Source of the DNA: an uncultured Bacteroidia bacterium
GTDB lineage: Bacteria; Bacteroidota; Bacteroidia; JACCXN01
Reading direction: 5' to 3'
DNA length: 32,984 nucleotides
NCBI GenBank assembly: GCA_937995645.1
Contig: CALKJP010000192.1
Location: 1-32,984, forward strand
Below, one piece after another: positions 29,273-32,984 of this stretch. Under the pieces are notes generated by a model. The model searched no databases, was not told the origin of the DNA, and saw only the letters and a list, made by a program, of their open reading frames with translations. Both the position numbers and the translations under genes were made by a program. Each line of letters begins with the position of its first letter. The first letter of the stretch is position 1.

Positions 29273-29345
29273 TGACCGATGGTGTAACTGGCAACACGTC
29301 TGATTTTGGTTCAGAAGAGTCTAGGTTCGAGCCCTAGTCGGTCAA
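29273..29345 (+). tRNA. tRNA-Gln(UUG)
   Basis: A complete cloverleaf: acceptor stem TGACCGA/TCGGTCA (7 bp, perfect), D-stem GTGT/ACAC, anticodon stem TCTGA/TCAGA with loop TTTTGGT giving anticodon TTG, a 5-base variable loop AGAGT, and T-stem CTAGG/CCTAG with TTCGAGC. Base 29345 is the discriminator. CCA is not encoded (CAA follows), so it must be added after transcription. The gene has its own promoter and terminator. Confidence 0.97.
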
Positions 29346-29424: not shown

Positions 29425-29457
29425 TATTATTTTATTTTGCCATTAAATAAAATAATA
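29425..29457. repeat. AT-only 13-bp palindrome upstream of the kinase gene
   Basis: TATTATTTTATTT (29425-29437) and its exact reverse complement (29445-29457) surround the 7-base spacer TGCCATT. It lies about 95 bases before the histidine kinase ATG and beyond the tRNA terminator. It could be a regulator site or a weak second terminator; it lacks a GC core. Confidence 0.5.
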
Positions 29458-29551
29458 CCGCCATTTATACAATCAATCATACCATTAAACGTATCATCAA
29501 AGTAATAACAAAAGTTTTATGTAAATTGGCTTAAACTAAAAAGCATTTTAA

Positions 29552-31768
29552 ATGTTAATTCGCTTGCTGCTTTTTATATGCCTGAGTTTTGTATCTGTGC
29601 TTTATGCTCAGGTGCCTTTATTTAAGCAGCTTCAGGAGCAAGACGGATTGCTGTCGAATAAAATTTATGATCTTAAATTTTATCAAGGCTATTTATGGAT
29701 TGCAAGCGATAAAGGTCTTTCATCTTACGATGGCAAACAATTTACGCACTATTTTACACAACAAGGTTTAAGTGAAAATGAAATTATTAAACTTCAATCT
29801 GATGCGGCTAATCGCCTTTGGGCTGTTGGTGCAAGTTCGCGCTTAAATTATTTTACTCAAGGAAAATTTCTTTTACTCCCATCAAATGAAACTTTTTTAA
29901 AACTGTTAAACAATCGTATCATCAGCACCATAAACTCCGAAAGCAATGGCGATGTAATTGTAACAACTATTTTAGGTGGAGGTACTATTCGAATTAAAAA
30001 TCTCACTCAAGTAGAAACCCTAAAACAAGATTGGGTAAACGGAGCATCGTTTTTTGTAAAACAATTATCTCCCGACCAATTTATTTGGGGAAGTAATAGC
30101 AATGCTATTGTAAATAAAAAATTAAGGGTACAGCTTTTAAAAAAAAATCAGGAAATAAATTTAAGTGCATCGCAGGGTTATTCTAAAGCTTCGTTTATCA
30201 AATTAATGTCGGGCGAATATTTGTATGCAAAAGATCAAGAGCTGATACATTTTAATGATAGCATAATTATCGGTCGTTCGTTTTTAGAAAAAAATATTGA
30301 ATGTGTTTACGAAGATCATGAAGGAAAAATTTGGGTTGGATTAAATGCCGGTGGTGCCGTATGTTTTCCAATGGGAACAATTTCTCAAGGAGGCTATTTT
30401 AGTTATTTTGGAAATAAGACCATAAGCGCAATATGTGGAGATAAAAAGGGTAATTTATGGTTTGCTTCAATTGAGTCCGGGTTGTTTTATTTACCCCCCA
30501 ATCCATACTCGAATTATACTCCTCCTAAAGTGTTTTCATCTGAAAAATTAAACAAAACTAAAAACAATGTTCAAACAACAAATAGTAATAATTCATTACT
30601 GATAAATAATTTACTGAACGATGATGTTTTAACATTAAATAAAGATTCAGTTTCAATAAAAAATAATGCGGATACACTACCACCACTAATATATATTTCC
30701 GGTATAAAAATTAATGAAAAAGACACATTGCCGGGAAATTACTATGCACTTAGCTATTCTGAAAATTCTATTAAAATAAATTATGCCGCATTTAGTGCTG
30801 TAAATAACCAAAAGTTTCAATTCCGATATCGTTTGACAGATTTTGATAAAGACTGGATATATACCGATAATACCTTTGCTCAATATAACGCTTTGCCTCC
30901 TGGCGATTATTTATTTAGTGTATCAGCAATGAATGCACAAGGTGTTTGGAGTAAAGAAAATGCCAACGTATTTTTTAAAATTTCACCGCCTTTTTGGCAA
31001 ACACTTTGGTTTTTTATATTATTAGTTTCGTTTATAGCCGTTTTAGTTATTTTGTTTTTTATTATAAGAGTAAAACAAATTAAAAAACGTGAGCAGGAAA
31101 AAACACAATTGCATAAACGTATTGCCGATATTGAGTTACAGGCATTGCGTGCACAAATGAATCCGCATTTTATATTTAATACTTTAGCCTCCATTCAATA
31201 CTTTATTACCGATAATAATGTAGAAGCAGCTAATCAATATCTTTCAAAATTTGCAAAGTTGATGCGAAGCATTATATATAACTCACGCAAAAAAACAGTT
31301 CCGCTTAAAGACGAAATTCAAGCATTGGAATTATACATTCAGATGGAACAACTACGCTGCAATTACAGTTTTGATTATGAAATTAAATGCTCCGAAAATA
31401 TTGATCAAAACGATGATGAAATACCCGGATTGCTTATTCAACCTTATGTAGAAAATGCCATTTGGCATGGTTTAACATATATTAAAGATAGAAAAGGAAT
31501 ACTTAAAATCAGCTTAGATAAAAAAAAAGATTTTATAAAATGTTCAATTGAAGATAACGGTATAGGCAGAAAAAAATCAATGGAAATTAAAGCACAAAGT
31601 TTAAAGCCGCATCAATCAGTTGGAATGTCGATAACCAAAGAGCGACTTGATATTTTAAACTCTTTTCAAAATAATAAATTAAGCGTGAATATTATTGATA
31701 AAATCAATCAACAAACACAAGAAGCAGAAGGAACAACAGTAGAAATATTTATACCTTTATTTGACTGA
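29552..31768 (+). CDS. LytS-type sensor histidine kinase with two-component propeller and Y_Y_Y domain
   Basis: A 738-residue inner-membrane sensor. It starts with a signal-like segment (MLIRLLLFICLSFVSVLYAQ). The periplasmic part, about residues 22-340, consists of propeller repeats with the recurring pattern D-G-LW-A/G-x-x-G-L (GYLWIASDKGLSSYDG, GKIWVGLNAGGAVCF, GNLWFASIESGLFYL). A Y_Y_Y domain follows at about 405-475 (FRYRLTDFDKDWIYTDN, LPPGDYLFSVSAMNAQG), then one membrane helix at about 484-506. The cytoplasmic His_kinase domain has His539 in LRAQMNPHFIFNTLAS, and the HATPase part (from about 625) shows PYVENAIWHGL and IEDNGIGRKKS. There is no DHp domain of the classical type. The response regulator starts 2 bases after the stop. 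The ligand is unknown. Confidence 0.93.
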   Translation: MLIRLLLFICLSFVSVLYAQVPLFKQLQEQDGLLSNKIYDLKFYQGYLWIASDKGLSSYDGKQFTHYFTQQGLSENEIIKLQSDAANRLWAVGASSRLNYFTQGKFLLLPSNETFLKLLNNRIISTINSESNGDVIVTTILGGGTIRIKNLTQVETLKQDWVNGASFFVKQLSPDQFIWGSNSNAIVNKKLRVQLLKKNQEINLSASQGYSKASFIKLMSGEYLYAKDQELIHFNDSIIIGRSFLEKNIECVYEDHEGKIWVGLNAGGAVCFPMGTISQGGYFSYFGNKTISAICGDKKGNLWFASIESGLFYLPPNPYSNYTPPKVFSSEKLNKTKNNVQTTNSNNSLLINNLLNDDVLTLNKDSVSIKNNADTLPPLIYISGIKINEKDTLPGNYYALSYSENSIKINYAAFSAVNNQKFQFRYRLTDFDKDWIYTDNTFAQYNALPPGDYLFSVSAMNAQGVWSKENANVFFKISPPFWQTLWFFILLVSFIAVLVILFFIIRVKQIKKREQEKTQLHKRIADIELQALRAQMNPHFIFNTLASIQYFITDNNVEAANQYLSKFAKLMRSIIYNSRKKTVPLKDEIQALELYIQMEQLRCNYSFDYEIKCSENIDQNDDEIPGLLIQPYVENAIWHGLTYIKDRKGILKISLDKKKDFIKCSIEDNGIGRKKSMEIKAQSLKPHQSVGMSITKERLDILNSFQNNKLSVNIIDKINQQTQEAEGTTVEIFIPLFD

Positions 31769-31770
31769 TT

Positions 31771-32523
31771 ATGGCTATAAATGTAATTATCATAGATGAT
31801 GAAAAAGGTGCTCGAGAATCGCTGCATAAACTTATTGAAAAATATTGTCCTCAAATTACCGTTGCAGCTAAAGCCACTAATATTGATGAAGCATATCAAT
31901 TAATCAAGGAGCTATCTCCACAACTAATATTTTTAGATATAGAAATGCCCAACGGTAGCGGGTTTGATTTATTAAAAAAATTTGATCATATACATTTCGA
32001 TATCATTTTTACAACGGCATACGATCATTATGCAATCAAAGCAATTAAATACAGTGCCATTGATTATCTTTTAAAACCAATTGATATTGATGATTTAAAG
32101 AATGCCATACAACGTGTATTACAAAAGCAAAAGAATAAATCTATACAAAACGAACAATTATTATCTTTATTAAATAATATTAAGCCCGAACAAACCGATA
32201 AGAAAATTGCCTTACACGAAGGTGATGGTCTAACATTTGTTAGACTCAAAGATATTATCCGTTGCGAATCAGACGGGAATTATACTACCATTATTTTAGA
32301 AGGCAACAGAAAAATAGTTACCTCTAAAACCTTAGGAGAATATGAAGAACTTTTTGCTAACGAAAATTTTTTTAGGATTCACCGTTCGCATTTAATTCAT
32401 TTACATCATCTAAAAAAATATATTAGAGGCGAAGGCGGTTATGTTATAATGAGCGATGGTTCTCAAGTAGAAGTATCCAGACGCAAAAAACAAGAATTTT
32501 TAGATAAACTTTCATTTTTATAA
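31771..32523 (+). CDS. LytTR family response regulator
   Basis: A 250-residue DNA-binding regulator. The receiver domain, about residues 3-120, has the acidic pocket Asp9-Asp10, phospho-acceptor Asp56 in LIFLDIEMPNGSGFDLL, the Thr of FTTAYDHYA, and Lys in DYLLKPID. A Gln/Lys-rich linker leads to a LytTR domain at about 145-250 (FVRLKDIIRCESDGNYTTII, then FFRIHRSHLIHLHHLKKYIR and VEVSRRKKQEFL). LytTR proteins bind paired direct repeats. It is surely the partner of the preceding kinase, being translated 2 bases after it. A matching repeat pair lies just past its stop. Confidence 0.95.
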   Translation: MAINVIIIDDEKGARESLHKLIEKYCPQITVAAKATNIDEAYQLIKELSPQLIFLDIEMPNGSGFDLLKKFDHIHFDIIFTTAYDHYAIKAIKYSAIDYLLKPIDIDDLKNAIQRVLQKQKNKSIQNEQLLSLLNNIKPEQTDKKIALHEGDGLTFVRLKDIIRCESDGNYTTIILEGNRKIVTSKTLGEYEELFANENFFRIHRSHLIHLHHLKKYIRGEGGYVIMSDGSQVEVSRRKKQEFLDKLSFL

Positions 32524-32529
32524 TAAAAT

Positions 32530-32559
32530 GCCGTTTATTCTCTAAAAGCCACCGTTTAA
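32530..32559 (+). promoter_or_regulatory. Candidate LytTR binding site (direct repeat pair)
   Basis: GCCGTTTAT (32530-32538) and ACCGTTTAA (32551-32559) each match the published LytTR consensus [TA][AC][CA]GTTN[AG][TG] in 8 of 9 positions. They are separated by exactly 12 bases, within the 12-13 reported for this family. A third, weaker copy, ACCGTCAAA, begins at 32569. The site starts 7 bases after the regulator gene and precedes an exported-protein gene. Confidence 0.6.
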
Positions 32560-32590
32560 TAATTTACAACCGTCAAACATTCATTTCCGA

Positions 32591-32621
32591 TTTCATATCA
32601 AATAATACTATCGTAACATTG
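32591..32621 (+). promoter_or_regulatory. Weak promoter-like sequence before the last gene
   Basis: TTTC at 32591-32594, a 19-base spacer, and TAACATTG at 32614-32621. Each element differs from the TTTG/TAnnTTTG consensus by one base. The LytTR-like repeats end about 30 bases upstream, a position suited to an activator. Confidence 0.35.
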
Positions 32622-32669
32622 CTTTAGAAAACAATCCCACCGATTGTATTACTCTAAAAACTAAGGCTT

Positions 32670-32984
32670 ATGGAACGATGCTATTCTAAAATAAAGAGCG
32701 CAGATTTAAAGAATATAACTTCTTTGTTTGCCAAAGATGCTCCTGCCATAATTAAAGACTTAATTTATTTCATCATTAAGGGTTCAGTTATAAAAGTTAT
32801 TTTAGTATTATTTGCTCTGCATAATTCAACTTCCCTTTTTGCAAAAAATCCTGAAAATGCAACCCCAAGACCATCCAACTGGCCTCAGGCATCATTATCA
32901 GGCTGTACCCCGGCAAAGAGTTCAACCGATTTACAGTTGAATAACGTAAGGGCATTAATACACACCGGAGGAGATATGTGGTGG
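32670..32984 (+). CDS. Start of an exported protein, 3' end cut by window edge
   Basis: The frame is open from ATG at 32670 to the window end (105 codons). A polar, Lys-rich stretch of about 30 residues (MERCYSKIKSADLKNITSLF onward) precedes a hydrophobic core at about 32-50 (IYFIIKGSVIKVILVLFAL), and a likely cleavage site follows ALHNSTSLFA. The mature start, NPENATPRPSNWPQ and then CTPAKSSTDLQLNNVRALIH followed by TGGDMWW, resembles the N-termini of large Bacteroidota secreted proteins that end in a T9SS sorting domain; this is from memory of the pattern, and the C-terminus is not visible. The n-region is longer than usual for a signal peptide. It may be controlled by the LytTR regulator encoded upstream. 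Confidence 0.7.
   Translation, partial: MERCYSKIKSADLKNITSLFAKDAPAIIKDLIYFIIKGSVIKVILVLFALHNSTSLFAKNPENATPRPSNWPQASLSGCTPAKSSTDLQLNNVRALIHTGGDMWW

Follow-up and report, generated by a model that had tools for sequence, protein, structure and literature searches.

We consider it quite likely that positions 32531–32621 of the window (the whole stretch of 32,984 nucleotides analyzed here) form a promoter that the adjacent two-component system has to activate. On the comparative evidence, we predict an operator of BtsR-like LytTR type whose set of targets is new and conserved. In the original prediction, the LytTR regulator next to the site was to act on it, with the exported-protein gene behind it as the target; comparison of genomes supports this reading, because such arrays are conserved beside orthologous regulators, because their distance to a –7 promoter box is constant and because a second array precedes the kinase gene. 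The exported gene as target is favored by the same exported family lying behind the sites of two relatives (G327 and, at its second site, G306). The features concerned are the following:

29440–29490, + strand: triple half-site array (CCATTAAAT/CCATTTATA/CCATTAAAC) upstream of the kinase gene, putative autoregulatory operator
29522–29529, + strand: candidate –7 box of the kinase–regulator operon (TAAATTGG), 32 bp after the third half-site
29552–31768, + strand: sensor kinase, 738 aa (Pfam Reg_prop propeller, Y_Y_Y, His_kinase)
31771–32523, + strand: LytTR response regulator, 250 aa (Pfam Response_reg and LytTR; FFRIHRS motif)
32531–32539, + strand: operator half-site 1 (CCGTTTATT), one base 3′ of the start originally proposed
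32552–32560, + strand: operator half-site 2 (CCGTTTAAT), 21 bp after half-site 1
32570–32578, + strand: possible weak third half-site (CCGTCAAAC), uncertain, picked by eye and spaced 18 rather than 21 bp
32614–32621, + strand: probable –7 promoter box (TAACATTG), 54 bp after half-site 2, a conserved distance
32670–32984, + strand: 5′ end of the exported-protein gene, predicted target, open at the contig end with 105 codons visible

The regulator carries a LytTR domain (PF04397, E 9.8e-19) and, as counterpart of the FhRhHRS motif used for comparison (PMC4227749), FFRIHRS. The genome encodes two further LytTR regulators (E below 1e-40). A tRNA gene (window 29273–29345; Rfam RF00005) lies 5′ of the kinase gene.

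Half-sites and their occurrence beside LytTR regulators

The two 9-base repeats of the original prediction, GCCGTTTAT at 32530 and ACCGTTTAA at 32551, are present exactly where claimed, separated by 12 bases and each matching eight of nine positions of WMMGTTNRK, the generic LytTR consensus. This match by itself carries no weight. Consensus pairs with up to two mismatches numbered 10 in the window vs. 11.5 expected (75 of 100 shuffles reached 10), and the whole 2.35 Mb assembly contained four exact pairs vs. five in a reversed control, all four inside ORFs and none of them the window site. With its frequency at chance level and its exact copies in coding sequence, the WMMGTTNRK pair was dropped as evidence. 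The layout of 9-mers 12 bp apart is that of a LytTR operator, described in PMC11347149 and PMC4847170 as a pair of ~9-bp direct repeats 10–13 bp apart. Measured against the generic consensus the site does not exceed chance, and the refuting condition named with the original prediction, a repeat pair at random frequency with no bias in position, applies to that consensus; what lifts the site above chance is conservation, spacing and promoter geometry.

The best-fitting half-sites are shifted by one base (+1) relative to these repeats and both contain CCGTTTA. CCRYTNA is the common word of half-sites that are repeated at 21 bp 3′ of homologous regulators; the third half-site of the window is poor, and that of relatives lies at +20/21. 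Visual inspection of the window and of ten loci of relatives (L004–L013) first yielded the word, and a test on 20 homologous regulators, window included, which counted exact pairs up to 450 bp past the stop codon of the regulator gene, reuses these sequences and is not independent for the motif letters. Period-21 pairs followed seven of the 20 regulators, all seven within the 11 closest homologues, as compared to one pair at period 20 and zero at any other period from 12 to 39; in 500 dinucleotide shuffles of the 11 closest, a mean of 0.004 genomes (maximum 1) had a pair.

Independent for the motif letters are 25 further homologues, the kinase array, the relatives G306 and G327, and a composite search of 395 genomes (see below). 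Among the further homologues, pairs occurred at period 21 in 10/25 and at period 20 in 7/25, with two or fewer at other periods between 12 and 40; 12 of these 25 come from one family and genus (f21/g23) and so are not independent. In a tree of 55 regulators, the array (scored as a pair reaching 11–12 of 12 at a period of 20–22) accompanied 20 of the 27 members of a supported clade (96/93) that includes the window regulator, but only 3 of the 28 outside it. The array was not enriched in 80 named homologues of 38–49% identity (one intergenic period-21 pair in 78,549 intergenic bases), which makes CCRYTNA arrays, judged by these sequence comparisons, the mark of a subgroup and not of all LytTR regulators. 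Whether the repeats are conserved in relatives had been raised with the original prediction, and arrays are indeed kept 3′ of the orthologous regulators.

Within the window's own genome, a metagenome-assembled genome (MAG) that is 86% complete, eight CCRYTNA pairs at period 21 were found vs. 12 in the reversed control. Three of the eight belong to this operon, all intergenic and in promoter position: two form the triple array and one is the site under study. Four of the other five fall in ORFs, and the fifth is intergenic with the next gene on the opposite strand. The half-sites of the triple array start at 29440, 29461 and 29482, keeping the 21-bp period, and end 61 bp before the kinase start; 29440–29490 is the only exact triple in the whole genome. 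Its position before the kinase gene suggests that the system may regulate itself. Such a kinase-side array is rare in relatives (G306, G042 and, weakly, G026). A search for further targets in the same genome, allowing up to two mismatches, yielded no lead (6 vs. 10 and 13 vs. 8 in the control).

Whether triple arrays mark LytTR loci in general was also considered across the 395 genomes, and the idea was dropped: many of the matches represent simple tandem repeats, and the others that were inspected mostly sit away from LytTR genes. Five contigs of genome G296 (C10, C13, C24, C36 and C38) contain many near-identical CCGTTTAATTTC... triple arrays between genes; these scattered arrays look like a dispersed repeat, not operators.

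Distance to a –7 promoter box

A scan for σ70 promoters between site and gene found none and was dropped as being of the wrong type for the Bacteroidetes phylum. The weak promoter originally proposed is not the one retained: it does not appear in the σ70 scan, and relatives support a –7 box of Bacteroidetes type, TAACATTG, elsewhere. The –7 pattern, TANNNTTG, was drawn by lining up the sequence 3′ of 11 sites, so that loci of the 25 further homologues outside these 11 sites provide an independent check. Around 29 arrays, TANNNTTG occurred 23 times at a distance of up to 110 bp, and 21 of these occurrences were at offsets of 32, 33, 53 or 54, mostly 32/33 after a third half-site and 53/54 when two half-sites were recognized; the difference equals one 21-bp step. 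Eight of the 29 arrays had no exact TANNNTTG within 110 bp; these include the arrays on the kinase side in the window, G306 and G042, as well as the G327 site and the site before the second exported gene of G306.

The sigma-A box of a flavobacterium is given as TAnnTTTG at –12 to –5, with a TAnnTTGY variant, in PMC9723704. The window's TAACATTG agrees with TAnnTTTG at five of six fixed positions and lies at the conserved place, and the box before the kinase gene, TAAATTGG, is not an exact TANNNTTG but resembles the variant. The fixed distance to TANNNTTG places the arrays just upstream of a core promoter. By arithmetic, the third half-site position ends near –45, i.e. ~10 bp above a –33 box, in agreement with the LytTR systems described in PMC6193735, whose repeats are commonly ~10 bp upstream of –35.

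Combining the pair with the –7 box yielded 76 matches in 56 of 395 Bacteroidia genomes vs. 25 in 15 genomes for the reversed control (totals counted by hand from a table; 10 of the 25 control matches come from one repeat-rich genome). In the window's genome, the only match was the window site itself, and the control had none. Among 20 composite matches hand-picked from the 76, 17 were intergenic and 14 had a same-strand ORF start no more than 160 bp from the box, one of these 14 overlapping the box end.

Genes behind the sites

The gene at 32670 has a hydrophobic signal-like segment (judged by eye) and is a member of an exported family in relatives, in accordance with the exported-protein gene foreseen behind the site. 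Its last 129 bp in the window (32856–32984) are identical to positions 2814–2942 of contig C20 of the same genome (G000:C20:2814-2942), inside an exported-protein gene of >1000 codons; the two are paralogous copies. This shared repeat is probably the reason why the contig ends at 32984.

In relatives, the locus runs in the order small genes, kinase, regulator, operator, TonB receptor (with a CarboxypepD_reg domain), large exported protein and PorV-family protein. Domain scans covered the proteins of C20, G053, G327 and G121, and other locus members were assigned by likeness. The G053 gene after the exported-protein gene scored 139.8 bits as PorV-family (cut-off 90). A PorV-family gene also follows the exported-protein gene at L172 (939–2030; by domain scan), with equivalents at L173, L177 and L178 (by likeness). 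For the C-terminal T9SS type A sorting domain TIGR04183, the G327 relative reached 18.3 bits, below the cut-off of 23, and the G121 relative gave no match; the window gene is cut off.

The kinase–regulator pair, previously regarded as an orphan, belongs to a conserved locus that is rearranged in this genome. The C20 locus (L040) holds two small genes, the TonB receptor and the exported protein; kinase and regulator are absent, and the TonB gene is without such an operator. The window, for its part, carries the kinase and regulator genes, the two operators and the beginning of a further exported-gene copy. This distribution points to C20 as the ancestral module minus kinase and regulator, with the two-component system relocated.

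Other genomes vary the arrangement. As in the window, the operator of G327 directly precedes the exported-protein gene; G306 carries an operator ahead of the kinase gene and a further one ahead of a second exported paralogue. Composite matches that lie away from a regulator precede TonB receptor genes in two genomes, G256 and G042, and in G256 the exported family comes next. In G045 and most g23 genomes, the site is followed on the same strand by a small membrane-protein gene and has no TonB or exported neighbor; in two g23 genomes, a TonB gene follows at ~750 bp.

Two observations on these relatives stand apart. Genome G084 (L227–L231) contains five operator–promoter units, and the ORF behind each has a start of MKK/MKN/MKY type; the products are likely exported, and this is perhaps a larger regulon of a LytTR regulator in that genome. 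In g23 genomes and G045, a conserved leader lies between the operator and the small single-TM gene (L005/L083, L012/L090, L146, L148–L152, L154 and L155). Its core, CACATGGGGATGT, is flanked by complementary-looking arms, and the exact 24-base core occurred in 9 of 395 genomes, all of genus g23. An Rfam search of the g23 leader returned no match and a consensus fold led nowhere, the alignment being poor; we list the leader as a candidate structured RNA.

Known systems, competing readings and outlook

The closest parallel is BtsS/BtsR–btsT of E. coli, a system of LytS/LytTR type with the same half-site make-up and spacing of 20–21 bp. The region upstream of btsT in E. coli K-12 contains CCGCTCA, CCGCTTA and CCACTCA, spaced 20 and 21 bp; no other exact period-21 pair occurs in the 16 kb examined. 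This is the region bound by BtsR, whose motif is ACCRCTYA-N13-ACCRCTYA. CCGTTTA, present twice in the window, fits CC(G/A)(C/T)T(C/T)A at this spacing, and among NCBIfam models the window regulator matches BtsR (PRK11697) best (140.9 bits, below the curated cut-off of 246). By analogy, the window site would work like a BtsR box, while the identity of the regulator as BtsR falls short of the cut-off. The likeness of the window repeats to those upstream of btsT suggests that a LytTR DNA code may have been kept across phyla. The two systems differ in their sensors, BtsS being a 7-transmembrane pyruvate receptor according to PMC10653868 and the window kinase a propeller/Y_Y_Y sensor, and in their targets, a pyruvate transporter as compared to the predicted exported protein.

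HdrRM and BrsRM of Streptococcus mutans likewise use direct repeats, mostly 12 bp apart, and include autoregulation, but the partner of their regulator is an inhibitory membrane protein rather than a kinase, and the repeat sequence is another (PMC6193735). RcoM/CoxC operators also comprise three evenly spaced direct repeats, with 12–13 bp between them; their repeat, however, is TTCNNGCA, they belong to one-component sensors, and CoxC represses (PMC11347149). For propeller-kinase LytTR systems, no operator or target was found in the literature covered, in which subscription journals are poorly represented.

That two CCGTTTA words merely happen to lie 21 bp apart is very improbable. The chance-level frequency of the generic pair and the deficit of CCRYTNA pairs relative to the reversed control, when taken alone, would fit such a coincidence, yet conservation linked to the regulator, the composite scan and the tracking of a clade all contradict it, as does the confinement to this operon of the three intergenic pairs in promoter position, with most of the others in ORFs. 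Because the –7 distance stays constant among relatives from several families, we regard chance as refuted. A real operator could also be shared or be bound mainly by another LytTR regulator, CCRYTNA arrays then being common to many LytTR systems of Bacteroidia. Composite matches in genomes or places where this regulator does not adjoin, such as the five in G084, speak for this, and the two other LytTR regulators of this genome might bind; we nevertheless hold it to be unlikely, as the site follows the orthologues of this particular regulator and tracks their clade, and the stretches examined at the loci of the other two contained no pair with a score higher than 10 of 12.

It is similarly improbable that the repeats repress, or chiefly serve the regulator operon through feedback from its 3′ side, with the exported gene a bystander. 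The site does persist without an adjoining TonB or exported gene in most g23 genomes and in G045, and LytTR proteins can repress when their site overlaps the promoter, as reported for CoxC in PMC11347149. In the window, however, the last half-site ends ~33 bp upstream of the –7 box and does not overlap it, and the place behind the site is taken, in g23 and G045, by a gene for a small membrane protein on the same strand.

Under activation by the adjacent system, the phosphorylated LytTR regulator would bind two (perhaps three) head-to-tail CCRYTNA half-sites, two helical turns apart, and would aid the housekeeping RNA polymerase at the –7 box, whereupon transcription of the exported-protein gene at 32670 would begin; the triple array before the kinase gene would let the system switch itself on as well. 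Binding by the adjacent regulator, activation rather than repression, autoregulation and any signal are all what we infer from the DNA.

Propeller-kinase LytTR systems are present in many Bacteroidia. A more far-reaching proposal, which we put forward tentatively and with some doubt, is a new regulatory code across the Bacteroidia, in which BtsR-like LytTR regulators, driven by propeller kinases, would switch on dedicated outer-membrane modules (TonB receptor, giant exported protein and PorV-family protein) from promoters with two to three half-sites phased at 21 bp and a fixed –7 distance. The module would be split here, with kinase, regulator and operators before another exported-gene copy, away from the TonB–exported pair of C20. 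Motif, spacing rule and –7 distance together give a scannable pattern for predicting targets in any Bacteroidia genome, and through this pattern TonB receptors and large exported proteins are linked to one propeller-kinase LytTR system.
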